DNA of 57,844 nucleotides from Anaerobranca gottschalkii DSM 13577 (GTDB lineage Bacteria > Bacillota > Proteinivoracia > Proteinivoracales > Proteinivoracaceae), in the NCBI RefSeq assembly GCF_900111575.1, contig NZ_FOIF01000006.1, forward strand, positions 17,258-75,101, in the 5' to 3' direction. This document shows positions 7,183 to 36,040 of this stretch, piece after piece. The translations under genes were made by a program, and so were the position numbers. Under the pieces are notes generated by a model. It saw nothing but the letters and a program-made list of their open reading frames with translations, was not told the origin of the DNA and did no database searches. Within the stretch, counting starts at the first letter, position 1. Every line of letters starts with the position of its first letter.

Positions 7183-9714
7183 ATGAAATTAACTAAAAAA
7201 GATATTGATAAGGTTAGACATATTGAAGGTTTTCCAATAGCAAAGGATGAGGATATAATCGCTTTATCTAATCCTCCATATTATACAGCTTGTCCTAATC
7301 CTTTTATAGAGGATTTTATAAAGGAACATGGCAAACCTTATGATGAAGGGACTGATGATTATCATAGGGAACCTTTTGCTGCCGATGTGAGTGAAGGGAA
7401 AAATGATCCAATTTATAATGCCCATAGTTATCATACAAAAGTACCTCATAAAGCTATAATGCGATATATACTTCATTATACTGAACCAGGTGATATTGTC
7501 TTTGACGGATTCTGTGGTACTGGAATGACAGGGGTTGCTGCACAAATGTGTGGCAACCCAGACCCTGAATTTAAGGCTAAAATAGAAAAGGAAATGCCTT
7601 ATGTAAAATGGGGTGCCCGTAAAGCTATTTTAAATGATCTTTCACCTGCTGCAACATTTATAGCCTATAACTATAATTCTCCTGTAGATGTAGTGGAATT
7701 TCAGCGAGAAGCAAATTGCATTTTAGAAGAATGTGAAAAAGAATTAGGATGGATGTATGAAACTAGACATGTCATCGAAGGGAAAATCCAAAGGGATATA
7801 TATGGAAATCCAGTTATGGGTCGTATTAACTATACTGTTTGGAGCGATGTATTTATATGTCCTACCTGTTCTAATGAAATAGTATTTTGGGATGCTGCCG
7901 TTGATAAAGAAAATGGTAAAGTTAATGATAAATTCTATTGCCCCCATTGTCGTAGCCAACTGACCAAACGCAGCTGTACTAGGGCCCAGGAAACCCATTT
8001 TGATACCGGCTTGAACCAATTGGTAACTATGGCTAAACAGGTACCGGTTTTAATTAATTATTCTGTTGGTAAAAAACGTTTTGAGAAAGAGCCAGATGAA
8101 TATGATATAGAGCTAATTGAAAAAATCAACAATATGGAAATTCCCTATTGGTATCCTACGGATAGAATGTGCGAAGGGAGAGAAAGTCGTAGGAATGATC
8201 AAAATGGGATAACACATGTGCATCAGTTTTATACGAGAAGAAATAATGCTTTTATGGCAATTTTGTATTCAAAGATTTCAAGATCAAAGAATAGATTACC
8301 ATTATTATTCGCGTTTACTGCTTCAATTCAAAGAGCAACTAAAACAAACAGATTTAGATTCGGCGGAACTGGCAATCTAAGCGGAACTTTGTATATACCT
8401 TCATTACAGTATGAAAGAAGTGCGAATGCATTATTTGTTTCTAAATTTAATGATATTATGAATCAAAAGCAAATGTTAATTGATAAAAATTGTTTTGTAA
8501 ATACAGCATCGCTTTCTAATATTATCAATTTACAAGAAAATTCAATAGACTACATTTTCACAGATCCTCCCTTTGGCAGTAACCTAAATTACTCTGAATT
8601 AAGCTTCATCTGGGAAGCGTGGCTCCGGGTTTTTACTAATCAGAAACCAGAAGCGATTATAAACGCCGTTCAGGGGAAAGGTTTGTTGGAGTATCAGTCG
8701 CTGATGACTCAATGTTTTAGTGAGTGTTACCGCATCTTGAAGCCGGGCCGTTGGATGACAGTGGAATTTCACAATTCGCAAAACTCTGTTTGGAATGCTA
8801 TTCAGGAATCATTAATGCGAGGAGGCTTTATTATTGCCGATGTTCGAACGTTGGACAAAAAGCAAGGCAGTTTTAAACAGGTTACGACAACTTCTGCTGT
8901 AAAGCAAGATCTTGTTATTTCTGCATATAAACCAAAGGAAAGTTTCAAACGAGAATTCATTTCTCATGCTGGGAGTGAAGAAACAGCTTGGAGTTTTGTT
9001 AGACAACATCTTGAAAATCTTCCTGTAGTCGTAGTTAAAAATGGAAAAATTGAATTAATAGCAGAACGCCAAGCATTTTTGCTCTATGATCGCATGGTAG
9101 CTTATCATATCATGAATGGTATATCTGTTCCCTTGGATGCAATAGATTTTTATAAAGGTTTAGATGAAAGGTTCTTAAAACGAGATGGAATGTACTTTTT
9201 AGCAGAGCAGGTAAATGAATATGATACCGCTCGAATTATAAATGATGTGCAACCGGTTCAGTTTGAGCTTTATGTCACCAACGAGAAGACTGCTATTTCA
9301 TGGCTCTATCAGCAACTTGAAACACCGCAGACATATGCTGAACTACAGCCAAAATTCATGCAGGAAATAAAAGCATGGGACAAGTTTGAAAAAAGGCTTG
9401 AACTGGCTGTTTTACTAGAAGAGAACTTTTTGCAGGACGATAAGGGTAGGTGGTACATCCCAGATATAACAAAAACTGCTGATGTGGCTAAACTTCGTGA
9501 AAAGAATTTATTAAAGGAGTTTGAAGGTTATTTAAGTACAAAAGGTAAATTAAAACTATTCCGTACTGAAGCTATTAGAGTAGGTTTTGCAAAACTCTGG
9601 GCAGATAAAAATTATAAGCTTATTGTCGAAACCGCGGAGCGCTTACCGGAAAGTGTTATCCAAGAGGATGATAAGCTGTTGATGTATTATGATTTGAGTT
9701 TGGGGAGAGTGTAA
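7183..9714 (+). CDS. pglX: BREX-3 adenine-specific DNA methyltransferase PglXI
   Basis: N6-adenine DNA methyltransferase that marks host DNA for BREX. The SAM-binding motif I is VFDGFCGTGMTG (residues 106-117) and the catalytic motif IV is DPPF (461-464). A zinc ribbon made by C226/C229 and C253/C256 lies between them. The region from about 320 to 450 is a good candidate for target recognition. Length is 843 residues. GC content is uneven: by hand count about 47% over 8641-8760 against about 23% over 8461-8520, which suggests mosaic origin at the junction between the variable segment and the catalytic motif. No frameshift is seen. Confidence 0.92.
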   Translation: MKLTKKDIDKVRHIEGFPIAKDEDIIALSNPPYYTACPNPFIEDFIKEHGKPYDEGTDDYHREPFAADVSEGKNDPIYNAHSYHTKVPHKAIMRYILHYTEPGDIVFDGFCGTGMTGVAAQMCGNPDPEFKAKIEKEMPYVKWGARKAILNDLSPAATFIAYNYNSPVDVVEFQREANCILEECEKELGWMYETRHVIEGKIQRDIYGNPVMGRINYTVWSDVFICPTCSNEIVFWDAAVDKENGKVNDKFYCPHCRSQLTKRSCTRAQETHFDTGLNQLVTMAKQVPVLINYSVGKKRFEKEPDEYDIELIEKINNMEIPYWYPTDRMCEGRESRRNDQNGITHVHQFYTRRNNAFMAILYSKISRSKNRLPLLFAFTASIQRATKTNRFRFGGTGNLSGTLYIPSLQYERSANALFVSKFNDIMNQKQMLIDKNCFVNTASLSNIINLQENSIDYIFTDPPFGSNLNYSELSFIWEAWLRVFTNQKPEAIINAVQGKGLLEYQSLMTQCFSECYRILKPGRWMTVEFHNSQNSVWNAIQESLMRGGFIIADVRTLDKKQGSFKQVTTTSAVKQDLVISAYKPKESFKREFISHAGSEETAWSFVRQHLENLPVVVVKNGKIELIAERQAFLLYDRMVAYHIMNGISVPLDAIDFYKGLDERFLKRDGMYFLAEQVNEYDTARIINDVQPVQFELYVTNEKTAISWLYQQLETPQTYAELQPKFMQEIKAWDKFEKRLELAVLLEENFLQDDKGRWYIPDITKTADVAKLREKNLLKEFEGYLSTKGKLKLFRTEAIRVGFAKLWADKNYKLIVETAERLPESVIQEDDKLLMYYDLSLGRV

Positions 9715-28608: not shown

Positions 28609-28641
28609 TTTAAGTGATTGATCCCTAATCAATCACTTAAA
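28609..28641. promoter_or_regulatory. Perfect 14-bp inverted repeat in the leader
   Basis: TTTAAGTGATTGAT and ATCAATCACTTAAA flank CCCTA. No T-run follows, so it is not a normal terminator. It could be an operator or a 5' mRNA-stabilising hairpin, 20 bases upstream of the ribosome site. Confidence 0.6.
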
Positions 28642-28680
28642 AATAAAAAAAGAAAAGAAAATAGGAGGGAGAGTAATTAC

Positions 28681-30504
28681 ATGAGAAAATTATTGACAGT
28701 ATTATTGATCTCCGTCATGGTGCTTTCTTTGGCAGCATGTGGAGGGAAACAGGAGGAAGCCCGTAAAATCGGTGGTACTTTAATTATCGGTAATACCACT
28801 GAAATGACCGGGGACTGGATAACAGCATTCTCCAATATCGCTTCTGACAGCGAAGTACTAAACTTAATTACAGGGTATTATACAGTTGATTTAACTTCTG
28901 CTGGGGAGTATGTAATCAACAAAACTGCTGTAAAGGATTATGAAAGGATTGTAAATGACGACGGTTCTATAACCTATGAGTTCGAGATCAACAAAGGGTT
29001 AAAATTTAGTAACGGAGTTGAAATTACTGCGAAAGACTATGTTGCTGATATTTTACTTTGGAACTCTAAGTTTATAGCCGATTTAGGTGGTTCTAACACC
29101 GTTTCTTTTAGGCTTAAAGGACATGGACCATATTCAAAAGGTGAAACTAAAGAATTTTCAGGAGTTCGCCTATTAGATGACTATAAATTCTCTGTAACTA
29201 TCGATGCTGCCCACTTACCATACTTCTATGAATTACCTCTAGTTAGGTATAGTCCAGAATTTTTACCTTTCTGGTTAGGGGACGGTGTAGATGTTGCTGA
29301 TGATGGAAATGGTGCTTATTTTACCGTAGAAGTTACCGAAGAAGCTTTTGGAGATATCTTTAAAGCAGCAAGGGAAAATCCTATATATGTATCTAGTGGT
29401 CCATATGTAGTAGAAGAATATGATGTTGCTTCTAAAATGGTTACTTTAAAAATCAATGAAAACTTTGCTGGTAACTATGAAGGACAAAAACCTTCAATAG
29501 AAACAGTGATCTTAAAGTTAGTTCAGCAAGATACAATGATGGATGAGTTAAGAACCGGTGGTGTAGACTTACTTTATGGTGTAGTTGCCGGTGGAACAAT
29601 CCAAGCAGGTCATGACTTAGTAGAAGAAGGTATCGGTATTACTTTCAGTGCTTATCCCCGTTCTGGTTATGGTAAAATCCACTTTGTAACTGACCATGGT
29701 CCAACACAATTTAAAGAAGTACGCCAAGCTATTGCCCACTTAATCAATAGAGATGAGTTTATTCAAGCCTTTGCTAGAGGTTATGGTTCAGTTGTCCATG
29801 GGCCATACGGAGAAGGTCAGTGGTTCTATCAAGAAACAAGACAAGAATTGTTATCTAAAGTTAATCTATATCCTTATAGCTTAGAAGATGCAGTTAGAGT
29901 TCTTGAAGAAGGTGGCTGGACTTTAGATGCCAACGGTAATCCATACACCGGCGAAGGTTTACGCCACAAAATGGTAGATGGCCAATTAATGCCTTTAGTA
30001 ATCGAATGGTTTGGTTCTGCTAATAACGAGTTTACAGATTTATTAGCTATCCGTTTACTAGAAAATCCTGATATCGCTGCTGCTGGTATGAAATTCAATC
30101 AAACAGTTGGTGATTTCGGTGAATTGATTAACTGGTATACCCGTACCGGTGGAGAGCAATACACAGTACCAACTTATCATATGTTTAACTTAGCTACTAG
30201 CTTTACCCCAATGTACGACTTAGAAAGAACTTATACACCTGGTGGTAGTGTAAACTACAATAGAATTAACGATGAAGAATTATATAGATTAGCAAAAGAA
30301 CTAGTTAGAAGAGATGGTACAGACAGAGATGGATTTAAAAAGGCCTTTGTTGATTTCATTGTTCGCTGGAATGAGTTACTACCTGATATTCCACTCTACT
30401 CTAACACCTTACACGATTTCTTCAATGAAAAATTAAAAGATTGGAATTTAACTGCTAATATCAGACTAGTTCATGCTATCCTCTATGCATATATCGAAGA
30501 ATAA
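28681..30504 (+). CDS. Peptide-type ABC transporter substrate-binding lipoprotein
   Basis: Family 5 (OppA/DppA-like) extracellular binding protein, 607 residues. The signal peptide MRKLLTVLLISVMVLSLAAC ends in a lipobox with the cysteine at residue 20, so it is lipid-anchored on the outer face of the membrane. The start is the ATG at 28681 behind AGGAGGGAG; a longer frame from 28618 would run through the leader hairpin. It is followed by a terminator and then the permease genes, so more binding protein than membrane parts can be made. The ligand may be peptides but could be a sugar or metal complex. Confidence 0.9.
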   Translation: MRKLLTVLLISVMVLSLAACGGKQEEARKIGGTLIIGNTTEMTGDWITAFSNIASDSEVLNLITGYYTVDLTSAGEYVINKTAVKDYERIVNDDGSITYEFEINKGLKFSNGVEITAKDYVADILLWNSKFIADLGGSNTVSFRLKGHGPYSKGETKEFSGVRLLDDYKFSVTIDAAHLPYFYELPLVRYSPEFLPFWLGDGVDVADDGNGAYFTVEVTEEAFGDIFKAARENPIYVSSGPYVVEEYDVASKMVTLKINENFAGNYEGQKPSIETVILKLVQQDTMMDELRTGGVDLLYGVVAGGTIQAGHDLVEEGIGITFSAYPRSGYGKIHFVTDHGPTQFKEVRQAIAHLINRDEFIQAFARGYGSVVHGPYGEGQWFYQETRQELLSKVNLYPYSLEDAVRVLEEGGWTLDANGNPYTGEGLRHKMVDGQLMPLVIEWFGSANNEFTDLLAIRLLENPDIAAAGMKFNQTVGDFGELINWYTRTGGEQYTVPTYHMFNLATSFTPMYDLERTYTPGGSVNYNRINDEELYRLAKELVRRDGTDRDGFKKAFVDFIVRWNELLPDIPLYSNTLHDFFNEKLKDWNLTANIRLVHAILYAYIEE

Positions 30505-30562: not shown

Positions 30563-30658
30563 CATATAAAGTAATTTTCCTTAAAGTTATAAATATTAAT
30601 AATGTTAACTAGTTAATAATTTTTCAGATTATACTAAGAGATGAAGGCAGGTAATAAT

Positions 30659-31645
30659 ATGTTAAAATACTTTATAAAAAGAATTGCCTATATGATCCTA
30701 GTTTTCTTTATTATGTCTATTGTTCTTTTTGGGTTGTATAGTCTAATACCTGGTGACCCGGCGATGATGAATGTTTTCCACTTGAAGGAACAAATGTCTC
30801 CTGAAGAATTTGAGGCTAGATATCAACAAGAACGGCAGAATTTAGGGCTAGATGATCCCGTACATGTCAGGTATTATCGTTGGGCAAGTAGATTTTTTAG
30901 GGGAGAATTTGGTAGGTCAAACTATTACAAAAAAGACGTTATTGATGTTGTTAAAACACCTTTGAGGGTAACAGTAACTTATAATATTTTTGTCGTCTTA
31001 TTAACCTTTTTAATCACTATACCTCTAGGTATAGCTTCTGCTGTTTATAAAAATTCTACCTTTGACAAAGTTGTACAAGTTGTAACTGTGGTTGGTTACA
31101 GTATTCCTTCCTTTATATTTGCGTTAATTTTTATTTACCTATTTGCAGTAAGGTTAGGTTGGTTTCCAGTTAGTGGTATGAGGACCCCTGGATTTTCAGG
31201 AACTCAGTTTCAAGAGTTTTTAGATTTGGTTAAACATATGGCACTTCCTGTTATAGCGTTAACTTTTGCATCATTAGGAGCGATGACCCGCTATGTTAGA
31301 GCTTCTATGATAGATGCTTTAGCTTTAGACTGTATTAGAACTGCTAGGGCAAAGGGTCTCAAAGAAAGGGTTGTTATTTTATCCCATGCTTGGAGGAATG
31401 CTTTGTTAGGTGTTATCACTTTGATGATAGCTTATGCTATGTCACTATTTAGTGGTGCATTGATCTTAGAAACTATGTTTAATATTCATGGAATGGGTAA
31501 ATTTTTATATGATTCTCTCCGGAACATGGATTATAATGTAACTTTGGCAATCCAGTTGTTCTACGTAGTTATCGCATTGGTGACTAATATCTTGATAGAT
31601 TTTAGCTATGGGCTTGTTGACCCAAGGGTAAGAGTAGATAAATAG
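30659..31645 (+). CDS. ABC transporter permease, OppB/DppB type
   Basis: First membrane subunit of the peptide-type importer, 328 residues with six predicted helices. It opens MLKYFIKRIAYMILVFF and has SLIPGDPA and YIYLF-type family sequence; the ATPase-contact loop is seen in RTARAKGLKERVVILSHAWRNAL (EAA-like). I prefer the ATG at 30659, 7 bases after AAGGCAGG, to the ATG at 30641. The next gene starts 12 bases after the stop. A normal family member without unusual insertions, unlike its partner. Confidence 0.92.
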   Translation: MLKYFIKRIAYMILVFFIMSIVLFGLYSLIPGDPAMMNVFHLKEQMSPEEFEARYQQERQNLGLDDPVHVRYYRWASRFFRGEFGRSNYYKKDVIDVVKTPLRVTVTYNIFVVLLTFLITIPLGIASAVYKNSTFDKVVQVVTVVGYSIPSFIFALIFIYLFAVRLGWFPVSGMRTPGFSGTQFQEFLDLVKHMALPVIALTFASLGAMTRYVRASMIDALALDCIRTARAKGLKERVVILSHAWRNALLGVITLMIAYAMSLFSGALILETMFNIHGMGKFLYDSLRNMDYNVTLAIQLFYVVIALVTNILIDFSYGLVDPRVRVDK

Positions 31646-31657
31646 GGAGGGGAAAGA

Positions 31658-33487
31658 ATGTCTAAAACAGAAAAAAACATCGAACAAAAGGCCCATAAGC
31701 GGTTGGCTATGTTTTCCTTTCTTTTTGGAGGGAAAAGTAAACTATCTATTTTAGAAGAGGAGCATATTGAAAGTCCAACTAGAACAATTATAAAAAACTT
31801 TGTTAGTAATAAAATGGGGATGACTGCTTTAATTATTTTTTTGAGTATTTTCTTAATAGTATCTATAGGACCTATTTTCATGCCTTTAGACTTATCTTTT
31901 TCAGATGCTAGTCAAATTGATACCCCCCCTGGTTTTGATATGATGAAGGTTCCTAGGGAACTCCAGGGAAATGTTAAACAAATTTCTGTAGGGCCTACTT
32001 ATTCTATAGGTTTATCCAATGATGGTCAAGTCTATGTTTGGGGCAAGAGTAGAAGGACTAGAACTAATGACTTGAAAAATATCCCTGAGAACATGGGACG
32101 GGTAGTTCAAGTAGCAGCAGGTTTTGATCACGCTTTAGCATTAAATGAACAAGGGAAGCTATTTGCTTGGGGTAGTAACCGTCATGGCCAAACGAATATT
32201 CCTGCAGAAGTCCAAAATTTAACTAATATTAAAGCTATTTATGCCGGATATTTATCATCATTAGTTTTAACTGAAGATGGTCATTTGTATTACTTTGGAA
32301 ATACAATGCTCAATGATTATAATGAGTTTCATCCTTATCAAGGGCAAATTAAAAAAGTAGCTTTATCTGAAAATCATTTTATAGCTTTGACCTTTGATGG
32401 GGAAGTGGTATTTTTAGGAAACCAACGGGCTTCTTATGCCAATATTCCACAAAATATGGGGAATGTAATAGATATAGCTTCTACATCTTTGACCTTTGCT
32501 GCTTTAAATGACAAAGGGGATGTTTTTATTTGGGGTAATCCCTCTGGGGCTAGAGGTGAAAGGGAGATCCCTGAAACTGAAAATAAAATTGTAGAAATTT
32601 ATGGTGGGAGACATCATTATGTTGCTAAAACCGATAAGGGAGAGCTGTTAAGTTGGGGACTTGACAATTACGGACAAGCCTCTATCCCAAGAAGGGTACA
32701 AAATGCTGAAATAGCTACTGTATATAATGGTTTTTACCAAAATTATGCTGTGACTAAAGATGGTAGAGTATTGACTTGGGGATTAAAAGGTTATCTTTTA
32801 GGTTCCGATGAATTAGGAAGAGATCTTTTCCAACGTATATTAAATGGTGGAAGGTTGAGTATGACAATAGGTGGAGTTGCAGTATTGATTTCCACTTTCA
32901 TAGCTATTGTTATTGGTGGTGTCTCCGGATACTTCGGTGGTAGAGTCGATATAATTTTACAAAGGATATCAGAAATGGTAGCATCATTGCCATTCCTTCC
33001 CTTAGCTATGATTTTGTCTGCTTTAATAGGTAATATGCTTACAACAACCCAAAGGGTATATTTGATAATGGTCATATTAGGACTTTTATCATGGCCTGGG
33101 CTATACCGTTTAATTAGGGCTCAAGTTCTTTCAATCCGTGAACAAGAATATGTTACTGCAGCAAAGGTATTGGGAGTTAAACAAAGTAGTATTATTTTTA
33201 AACACATTATTCCCAATGTTATTTCAGTTATTATCGTTTCCGCTACTTTATCCTTTGGTGGTAGTATGATAACTGAGGCTAGTTTGTCCTTTTTAGGTTT
33301 TGGAGTACAACCACCCTATCCTACTTGGGGTAATATGCTAAATAGTGCGAGAAACAGTGTTGTAATTCAAAATTTCTGGTGGAGATGGGTCTTTCCATCA
33401 ATAGTTCTATCTGTTTGTGTAATTTGTATTAATATAATCGGTGAAGCATTAAGAGCTGCTATAGACCCGAAATCTCAAGAACGTTAG
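31658..33487 (+). CDS. ABC permease, OppC/DppC type, with an inserted RCC1-like propeller
   Basis: Second membrane subunit, 609 residues, about twice the family's usual length of roughly 300. The N-terminus (1-75) has the first helix, and from residue 381 the usual sequence resumes (GSDELGRDLFQRIL, five more helices, EAA loop REQEYVTAAKVLGVK). Between them, residues 105-378 (31970-32791) form seven repeats of about 40 residues with RCC1 features: hhxhxxGxxxxhhLxxDGxhhhWG, such as QVAAGFDHALALNEQGKLFAWG. RCC1 proteins are seven-bladed propellers, so this looks like a complete one. It lies in the first outside loop. No frameshift is present. The propeller may bind the ligand, the binding protein or the cell wall; this is inference. 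Confidence 0.9.
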   Translation: MSKTEKNIEQKAHKRLAMFSFLFGGKSKLSILEEEHIESPTRTIIKNFVSNKMGMTALIIFLSIFLIVSIGPIFMPLDLSFSDASQIDTPPGFDMMKVPRELQGNVKQISVGPTYSIGLSNDGQVYVWGKSRRTRTNDLKNIPENMGRVVQVAAGFDHALALNEQGKLFAWGSNRHGQTNIPAEVQNLTNIKAIYAGYLSSLVLTEDGHLYYFGNTMLNDYNEFHPYQGQIKKVALSENHFIALTFDGEVVFLGNQRASYANIPQNMGNVIDIASTSLTFAALNDKGDVFIWGNPSGARGEREIPETENKIVEIYGGRHHYVAKTDKGELLSWGLDNYGQASIPRRVQNAEIATVYNGFYQNYAVTKDGRVLTWGLKGYLLGSDELGRDLFQRILNGGRLSMTIGGVAVLISTFIAIVIGGVSGYFGGRVDIILQRISEMVASLPFLPLAMILSALIGNMLTTTQRVYLIMVILGLLSWPGLYRLIRAQVLSIREQEYVTAAKVLGVKQSSIIFKHIIPNVISVIIVSATLSFGGSMITEASLSFLGFGVQPPYPTWGNMLNSARNSVVIQNFWWRWVFPSIVLSVCVICINIIGEALRAAIDPKSQER

Positions 33488-33498
33488 GGGGATAAATA

Positions 33499-34491
33499 AT
33501 GGCATTATTAGAATTGAAAAATTTACACACATACTTCAAAACCAAAAAAGGAATTATAAAAGCGGTAAATGGTGTCAGTTATTCAGTTGAAGCAGGGAGG
33601 ACCCTTGGGATAGTAGGGGAAAGTGGTAGTGGAAAAAGTGTATCAGCTATGAGTATCTTAAAATTATTAGACGGCAATGGTTATATAGCTGATGGTGAAA
33701 TACTCTTTAATGGAGAAAATTTGGTAGATATCCCTGTAAGTCAGATGACTAGAATTAGGGGAAATGAAATATCAGTAATATTTCAAGAACCAATGACATC
33801 ATTAAACCCTGTATTTTCTGTAGAAAGGCAGTTATCAGAACCTTTCATTATTCATCAGGGAATGAGTAAAAAAGAGGCAGCAGAAAAAGTGGTAGAAATG
33901 CTAGCATTAGTTAAAATTCCTAATCCAGAAACTGTTGCCAAACAATACCCCCACCAGCTTTCCGGTGGAATGAGACAGAGGGTAATGATTGCTATGGCTT
34001 TAGCATGTCGACCTAGGGTGTTGATTGCTGATGAGCCTACAACGGCATTAGATGTTACTATTCAAGCTCAAATCCTTAAATTGATGAACGAACTTAAAAG
34101 TACAGTTGGAACATCGATATTATTTATTACCCATGACTTAGGTGTAATAAATGAGATGGCCGATGATGTTGCTGTTATGTATTGTGGTCAGGTTGTGGAA
34201 AAAGCCACTGCTAGAACCATTTTTGGAAAGGATAGTAAATACTCCCATCCTTACACAGAAGGTCTTATGACTTCTATACCTAGACTAGATACCCCAAAAG
34301 GAACAAGGTTAGAAGCTATTCCTGGAGCTGTTCCCCATCCCTTAAATTTACCTAAAGGTTGTAAATTTGCCCCTAGATGCAAATATGCTACAGATAAATG
34401 TAGGGAACATGAACCCCAATTACTTGAAGTGGAGCCAGGGCATCAAGTTCGTTGCTTCTATCCAGTGAAAGGAGTAAGACAAAATGGCTAA
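33499..34491 (+). CDS. ABC transporter ATPase, OppD/DppD type
   Basis: First nucleotide-binding subunit, 330 residues, normal for the family. Walker A GESGSGKS at about 39-46, signature LSGGMRQRV, Walker B LIADEPTTALD, and the H-loop ITHDLGV are all intact. The C-terminal cysteine-rich extension GCKFAPRCKYATDKC fits the peptide-importer family, where it can bind an iron-sulfur cluster. It overlaps the next ATPase gene by 8 bases. Confidence 0.95.
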   Translation: MALLELKNLHTYFKTKKGIIKAVNGVSYSVEAGRTLGIVGESGSGKSVSAMSILKLLDGNGYIADGEILFNGENLVDIPVSQMTRIRGNEISVIFQEPMTSLNPVFSVERQLSEPFIIHQGMSKKEAAEKVVEMLALVKIPNPETVAKQYPHQLSGGMRQRVMIAMALACRPRVLIADEPTTALDVTIQAQILKLMNELKSTVGTSILFITHDLGVINEMADDVAVMYCGQVVEKATARTIFGKDSKYSHPYTEGLMTSIPRLDTPKGTRLEAIPGAVPHPLNLPKGCKFAPRCKYATDKCREHEPQLLEVEPGHQVRCFYPVKGVRQNG

Positions 34492-36040
34492 GATACAAAA
34501 TGGTAAAAAGGTCTTAATCCGTATTGAAAACTTAAAACAATACTTTCCATTAAAAAAGAAATCAATTTTTGCAGAACAGTTATATGTAAGGGCAAATGAT
34601 GATGTTTCTTTAGATATTTACGAAGGTGAAACTTTAGGGCTAGTAGGGGAAAGTGGTTGTGGTAAATCGACCCTAGGTAGGACGTTATTACAACTTTATA
34701 ATCAGACCGATGGTAGAACAATTTATTATGGTAGAGAATTAGATGAAATTGCTCCCCAGTATGTAGTTAAGACTTTGAAAAATTTAGAAAAAATTCGGGA
34801 AAAGTATAAAGAAGCTAAAAAAGTTGAAGAAGAGGCAAGGAAAGCCTATGAAAAAGCGGCAGAAGGTGAGGAGAAATACAAAGCTATTAACAAACTGAGG
34901 GCTGCAGAGAAAGTTAGTAAAGATTATTTCTTAGATATGGTACAGCTTATAGGTGGATTTTATTTAGCTGAAGATTTAAAACCAGTAGCGGATATCCTAT
35001 TAAAAGAGCATAATGCAGCTATTAAGGTAAGAAGAATTAAGAATAAAATTCAAGATTATCAATTAAAATTAGATAATAAAGTAGCTAAGTTGAGGGATAA
35101 AGGAAACAGTGAAAAAGAAATAGAAGAAAAAGTAAAAACCTTGAAGGAAAAAATAGCTGAACAAAAGGCTGCTTTAAAAGAAGCAGAGAAGAAGCTAGAA
35201 GAAATATTGGCTACTATAGAAAAAATGTTAGACCCATATAGGGATCATCCTGATTTTGAAAGATTAGAATCTTATAGAGATAAAGGGATAGACTTAGCTA
35301 AGCTTACCGTAGATGAAATGAGGATAGTAAGAAAAGATTTACAATTAATTTTCCAAGACCCTTATTCATCTTTAAATCCGAAGATGACAGTTGGTCAAAT
35401 TATTTCCGAAGGGTTGTTTGCCCATAAGATGTTTTCTCCAAATGATCCCAAATTACAAGATTACGTTTTAGATGTTATGGATAAGTGTGGGTTACAAAAT
35501 TACTTTGTTCACCGTTATCCCCATCAGTTCTCTGGTGGTCAAAGGCAGCGGATAGGTATTGCCCGTTCAGTTGCTCTAAAACCTAAATTTATTGTCTGTG
35601 ATGAAGCGGTTTCTGCACTAGATGTTTCTATTCAATCACAAATTCTTAACTTATTACAAGACCTTAAAGAGCAAGAAAAATTAACGTATCTATTTATATC
35701 CCATGACTTATCAGTTATTAAACATATTAGTGATAGGGTAGCAGTAATGTATTTAGGTAATGTAGTGGAGTTAGCAGAAACAGAAGAATTGTATCAGAGG
35801 CCAATGCATCCATATACTGAGGCATTGTTAATGGCAATACCTACTACTGATATCGATGTAGATAAAAAAGAAGTTTATGTATTAGAAGGAGATATACCAA
35901 GTCCTATTCGCCCGCCAGCAGGCTGTAAATTCCACACCCGCTGTCGCTATGCAACGGAAATTTGTAAGAATGTACCACCAAAACTTGAAGAAGCTTCACC
36001 TGGACACTTTGTAGCTTGTCACCATAAACTAAATCAATAA
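34484..36040 (+). CDS. ABC transporter ATPase, OppF/DppF type, with coiled-coil insertion
   Basis: Second nucleotide-binding subunit, 518 residues instead of about 320. Walker A GESGCGKS (55-62), signature FSGGQRQRI, Walker B FIVCDEAVSALD and the C-terminal cysteine motif are normal. Between Walker A and the Q-loop (LIFQDPYSSLNP, 288-299) is an extra segment of about 190 residues (86-275, DNA 34739-35308) that is rich in Lys, Glu and Ala and shows heptad patterns in two arms, as in a coiled-coil hairpin. It would project from the ATPase core into the cytoplasm. The start ATG overlaps the previous gene, with AAAGGAG upstream. Confidence 0.92.
   Translation: MAKIQNGKKVLIRIENLKQYFPLKKKSIFAEQLYVRANDDVSLDIYEGETLGLVGESGCGKSTLGRTLLQLYNQTDGRTIYYGRELDEIAPQYVVKTLKNLEKIREKYKEAKKVEEEARKAYEKAAEGEEKYKAINKLRAAEKVSKDYFLDMVQLIGGFYLAEDLKPVADILLKEHNAAIKVRRIKNKIQDYQLKLDNKVAKLRDKGNSEKEIEEKVKTLKEKIAEQKAALKEAEKKLEEILATIEKMLDPYRDHPDFERLESYRDKGIDLAKLTVDEMRIVRKDLQLIFQDPYSSLNPKMTVGQIISEGLFAHKMFSPNDPKLQDYVLDVMDKCGLQNYFVHRYPHQFSGGQRQRIGIARSVALKPKFIVCDEAVSALDVSIQSQILNLLQDLKEQEKLTYLFISHDLSVIKHISDRVAVMYLGNVVELAETEELYQRPMHPYTEALLMAIPTTDIDVDKKEVYVLEGDIPSPIRPPAGCKFHTRCRYATEICKNVPPKLEEASPGHFVACHHKLNQ

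Follow-up and report, generated by a model that had tools for sequence, protein, structure and literature searches.

Why should the permease of a peptide importer carry a block of repeats the size of a whole domain? The window analysed here is a 57,844-nucleotide stretch of Anaerobranca gottschalkii DSM 13577, and coordinates are positions in this stretch. An operon within it encodes a lipoprotein solute-binding protein (SBP), the permeases OppB and OppC and the ATPases OppD and OppF (Table 1). Its OppC is interrupted between the first transmembrane segment and the rest of the permease.

An OppC permease interrupted by a repeat domain

An earlier note on this DNA had claimed that RCC1-like repeats interrupt OppC without a frameshift. 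The reading frame is indeed open across all 609 codons (31658-33487). The combined RCC1 and BPD_transp_1 architecture that the note proposed to look for was recovered by Pfam, with each part above its cut-off and permease domains on either side of the repeats. OppC_N matches residues 39-91 (1.4e-7; 31.7 bits against a cut-off of 23.9), RCC1_2 matches seven stretches (5.2e-44; 147.4 bits against 22) and BPD_transp_1 matches residues 416-605 (1.2e-32; 113.5 bits against 26.4). WD40_RLD also matches the protein, with 159.6 bits against a cut-off of 150. Of the features that define the OppC/DppC family, the protein shows PF12911 and PF00528, six transmembrane segments and the second permease slot of an A-B-C-D-F operon. 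The best curated NCBIfam permease model for the core is Opp4C (NF045476; 294 bits, below its cut-off of 350), which covers the permease core but lacks the insert; no NCBIfam model for a propeller-bearing OppC was found. In the whole genome, RCC1_2 matches are confined to this single gene. Frameshift fusion was rejected as its source, and so was recent foreign insertion, the GC content of the insert being equal to that of its surroundings.

The repeats had been placed at residues 105-378 (31970-32791), which is right to within a few residues. Counted against ordinary OppC, however, the permease sequence breaks off after 'PP' (residues 90-91) and is taken up again at 'LGSDELGRD' (residues 381-389), and the insert appears best delimited as about residues 93-380.

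Table 1. Features of the importer operon in the window, with the predicted parts of OppC and OppF.
Feature	Position	Strand	Basis
SBP, family 5 solute-binding lipoprotein, OppA-like, lipobox LAAC	28618..30504	+	Pfam SBP_bac_5 9.5e-39
OppB permease	30641..31645	+	Pfam BPD_transp_1 1.7e-39, BPD_transp_1_N
OppC permease with propeller, 609 aa	31658..33487	+	Intact ORF, Pfam
OppC TM1, residues 57-75; N-terminus probably inside, by homology to DppC	31826..31882	+	Hydropathy, OppC_N, DppC topology
Predicted seven-blade RCC1/BLIP-II-type propeller, residues 106-375, probably outside	31973..32782	+	AF2, Foldseek, repeats
GSDELGRD motif at residues 382-389; restart of ordinary OppC sequence	32801..32824	+	Alignments
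BPD_transp_1 permease core, residues 416-605	32903..33472	+	Pfam; PDB OppC/DppC 8z21, 8z1v
OppD ATPase, ordinary length	33499..34491	+	Pfam
OppF ATPase, long form, 518 aa	34484..36040	+	Pfam, length
OppF predicted helical insert, residues about 86-262	34739..35269	+	Alignment, AF2

The repeats start at residues 106, 149, 191, 231, 270, 311 and 352, and the summed pairwise identity of the blades is 150/504, compared to a maximum of 50 among 2000 shuffles. An AlphaFold2 model of OppC was built on 13 orthologues. In this model the insert forms 21 strands grouped into seven triplets, one triplet per blade, with pLDDT values mostly above 80 (ten-residue means mostly 81-94, dipping to 55-78 at some blade links). 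Since the membrane part was of low confidence (model pTM 0.53), the model was used for the propeller only, and the orientation of the propeller to the membrane was not taken from it. The top Foldseek match in the PDB was BLIP-II (1jtd, E 8e-19; 3qi0_A, E 3e-18, TMt 0.85, 2.6 Å), followed by RCC1 domains such as that of UVR8, and the matches also included OppC of E. coli (8z21_B) and of M. tuberculosis (8j5s_C). Sequence profiles agree with this partition, the core leading to OppC/DppC and the insert to UVR8, HERC2 and BLIP-II. The predicted structure confirms the insert as a complete seven-blade propeller of the RCC1/BLIP-II type that would close into a ring, as the earlier note had expected. 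The modelled blades are three-stranded, unlike the four-stranded blades of eukaryotic RCC1 proper. BLIP-II blades are three-stranded as well.

Hydropathy analysis gave six peaks in total. The first transmembrane segment (57-75) comes before the insert and the other five come after it, while the insert itself contains none. Both permeases of E. coli DppBCDF span the membrane with six helices, and their TM1-TM2 region faces the periplasm (PMC12136057). Profile alignment equates TM1 with DppC residues 16-57 and restarts at DppC residue 75, which places the insert outside. Homology to DppC, with the single hydropathy segment before the insert, thus supports the proposed extracellular location, and the propeller probably stands outside the cell in the TM1-TM2 loop.

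Distribution and single origin of the propeller-bearing OppC

The sister species carries a propeller OppC with 77% identity, and at least 61 distinct sampled genomes of the phylum, overlaps removed, encode one. The architecture is therefore not an artefact, as the comparison with related genomes suggested in the earlier note now establishes; together with a repeat identity far above that of shuffles, this leaves a negligible likelihood for an assembly or cloning error or a chance run of repeats. Propeller OppCs were found in 13/398 genomes sampled from the phylum, in 16/391 genomes of the class of G203, and in 39/180 genomes (17 of 73 genera) of the order of G203. The class count leaves out G564 and G606, whose matches were rejected as propeller permeases because they are stand-alone RCC1 proteins. 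Except in G010, where the contig ends, the frames are 609-707 aa long, and nearly all matches cover both junctions. The match in G607 is partial; Pfam still detects all three parts in that protein. Two carriers are named: L053 is Clostridium sp. Cult1, and L054 is the MAG of an uncultured Eubacterium. L055-L058 were rejected as propeller relatives, as their OppC lacks the propeller. One genome holds a pair of propeller-OppC genes separated by about 8 kb (G844:C1:1669595-1678559).

The order SBP-OppB-OppC-OppD-OppF was conserved in 29/29 loci examined, with absent or truncated genes solely where a contig ends, and a cognate SBP was present in the same operon at every locus with enough contig. 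In the window, the SBP probably starts at an ATG near 28681; the solved OppA nearest to it is 9p48.

A maximum-likelihood tree was calculated from the permease core alone, with the insert removed, for 30 propeller rows and 53 other OppC rows (short, with other inserts, or with an N-terminal extension). All 30 propeller rows fell on one side of a single branch (support 100/100) and none of the 53 others lay inside. Moreover, a core search of 391 genomes ranked the 16 propeller types first, non-propeller cores following at no more than 53% identity. These computations show a single origin of the propeller OppC in the OppC tree, and no loss was seen among the 30 clade members. The window row nests with rows of other classes, including Clostridium sp. 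Cult1, and not with family f3, which belongs to the same class as the window; horizontal transfer of the propeller OppC is therefore likely. Elsewhere, the OppC proteins of family f164 (L169, L174-L176) are extended at the N-terminus by a long stretch that contains additional hydrophobic segments.

The dN/dS ratio of the insert is well below 1 (least saturated pairs 0.045/0.285 and 0.054/0.615), and purifying selection on the propeller is shown by computation. The dN of the insert exceeds the core value by a factor of 1.7 to 9, with about 2.5 in mid-range.

The long OppF and the OppC insertion loop

The OppF insert was located by alignment between Walker A and the Q-loop, and is predicted to form four long helices (AF2; pLDDT mostly 84-97, mean 89 for the whole protein). 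Outside the insert the protein matches E. coli OppF. Among the 29 propeller loci OppF is 474-556 aa long wherever its frame is intact, whereas OppF frames in eight sister-branch operons, with short or other-insert OppC, are 327-408 aa long and lack the four-helix insert. A search of 398 genomes for the OppF insert retrieved 13 genomes, of which 12 have a propeller OppC, so that the pairing with long OppF, which the earlier note had advised checking, is near strict. The exception, G006, has only OppD and long OppF, adjoining kbl/tdh genes. In G007 the propeller OppC is present and the contig stops before OppF. From this joint occurrence and the ordinary OppF of the sister operons it follows that two clade-specific insertions go together. 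The best explanation is that these operons form a subfamily of their own among the Opp-type (Type I) peptide importers, with a putative extracellular propeller on OppC and a putative cytoplasmic helical bundle on OppF.

The orphan pair of OppD and long OppF next to kbl/tdh genes, with neither SBP, OppB nor OppC, lies at L155:6221-8825 (-). In the sister species the OppF frame is broken at an A run inside the helical insert (L082, about 8990-9060), and OppF is also split in some MAG copies (L088, L092 and L095); the cause may be sequencing error, decay or slippage.

The TM1-TM2 loop of OppC is an insertion hot spot. A Big-like Ig domain occupies the same loop in G001, a genome that belongs to the same family as the window, and 19 OppC rows forming a separate group carry there an unrelated, repeat-like insert without Pfam match, about 280 aa in its commonest form, for which no PDB match was found. 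The propeller is thus one of at least three independent occupants, and the loop has acted as a bay receiving unrelated domains several times. OppC proteins of 507 aa with the Big-like Ig insert occur at L111:5864-7384 (-) and at L014; in carriers of the Pfam-less insert, including L167, L179, L181 and L188, the OppC frame spans 394-658 aa.

The variety of inserts in this loop, with three or more unrelated types, would fit a passive insertion of the propeller, a compact domain with meeting termini accepted by a permissive loop and contributing little beyond shielding or stabilisation. However, the single old gain with no loss among 30 members, the purifying selection on the insert and its near-strict pairing with long OppF all speak against such neutrality, which we regard as rather unlikely.

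Candidate roles of the propeller and comparison with known importers

Covariation was analysed in 23 complete operons with 999 permutations. Distances of the propeller correlated with those of the SBP when OppD and the OppC core were controlled for (partial r 0.64; 0/999 permutations), and the partial r was 0.41 given all other subunits. Values for the other partners were 0.39 for OppB, 0.28 for the OppF insert and 0.46 for the OppF core. The OppF core cannot touch the propeller and still reaches this value; correlations of this kind are raised when two proteins are both exposed at the surface and have a common operon history. The signal is consistent with contact between propeller and SBP, yet shared exposure and fast evolution may produce the same signal.

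From the anatomy shown by computation we infer each of the functional steps that follow. A large folded extracytoplasmic domain in a Type I importer permease has a precedent in MalF P2 of MalFGK2; this domain occupies another loop, has another fold and is not homologous to the OppC propeller. MalF P2 reportedly contacts MalE throughout the transport cycle (Daus 2009, cited in PMC3150292). By analogy, the propeller may offer the lipoprotein SBP a place to dock on the outside. It would stand by the outer mouth, where the SBP lands, as a fixed platform that docks and orients the lipid-anchored SBP and holds it near the translocator throughout the cycle, as MalF P2 does MalE. The position of the insert in a region that is periplasmic in DppC, on the SBP-docking face, would support this role; in E. 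coli, DppA docks on the outside with the DppB scoop motif in its cleft (PMC12136057). RCC1 and BLIP-II propellers are general binding scaffolds, and BLIP-II binds a protein (PMC9218822); a BLIP-II-like fold would suit a docking surface. The cognate SBP in the operon, its covariation with the propeller and the purifying selection also point this way. Against it, the insert evolves faster than the core. Moreover, sister OppCs with other inserts or none have their own SBPs, so the propeller is not required for Opp function. Docking of the binding protein, as first proposed, stands as the best-supported function on position, analogy and covariation, and we put it forward tentatively, as somewhat short of probable.

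A binding scaffold that changes faster than its permease core would fit a variable ligand. The propeller could be an independent extracellular ligand-binding domain that captures a protein, a long peptide or a wall component, and so either raises the local substrate concentration or ties the importer to the wall. No wall-binding Pfam domain was found in the propeller OppC, and covariation is strongest with the SBP; we consider this reading unlikely, though credible.

In E. coli DppC pairs with DppF (PMC12136057), so the OppF bundle would lie on the same half of the machine as the propeller-bearing OppC, where, speculatively, it may tune the ATPase. The two clade-specific insertions, on subunits whose counterparts pair physically, could also form a transceptor, the propeller sensing a signal from outside and the bundle relaying it inward or gating the ATPase. 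However, propeller and OppF insert covary weakly, the partial r falling to 0.05 given all other subunits, and the operon contains no signalling partner, which makes signal relay quite unlikely. A coupled outside-inside regulatory pair, making the importer also a receptor, built once and kept across many families, appears to us distinctly improbable.

The proteins of A. gottschalkii, the sister species and Clostridium sp. Cult1 offer directly testable cases of how an importer holds its binding protein, and of why some lineages gained a second outside domain. A Type I peptide importer can accommodate an entire extracellular propeller within one loop of a permease, together with a matching clade-specific ATPase bundle. 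The earlier note knew of no ABC importer built in this way, and our full-text search of 5.4 million open-access papers likewise found no description of an RCC1 propeller within an ABC permease.

The nearest known systems, E. coli DppABCDF and OppBCDF and M. tuberculosis OppABCD and DppABCD (8z1v, 8z21, 8j5q, 8wd9), have a related subunit set and six transmembrane segments. Their OppC/DppC cores align with the propeller OppC over 220-230 residues, but these proteins are 287-302 aa long, lack a propeller and have only a short loop between TM1 and TM2. Similarly, E. coli OppF and DppF are of ordinary length, in contrast to the long OppF described here. BLIP-II (1jtd, 3qi0) shares the seven-blade RCC1-like propeller, with 25-26% identity and TMt 0.80-0.85, but is a free secreted beta-lactamase inhibitor outside any transporter. 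The eukaryotic RCC1, UVR8 and HERC2 domains belong to the same repeat family by sequence; they are, however, intracellular, have larger blades and show no transporter link. The parts of this importer all come from known families, and their combination appears to be new.
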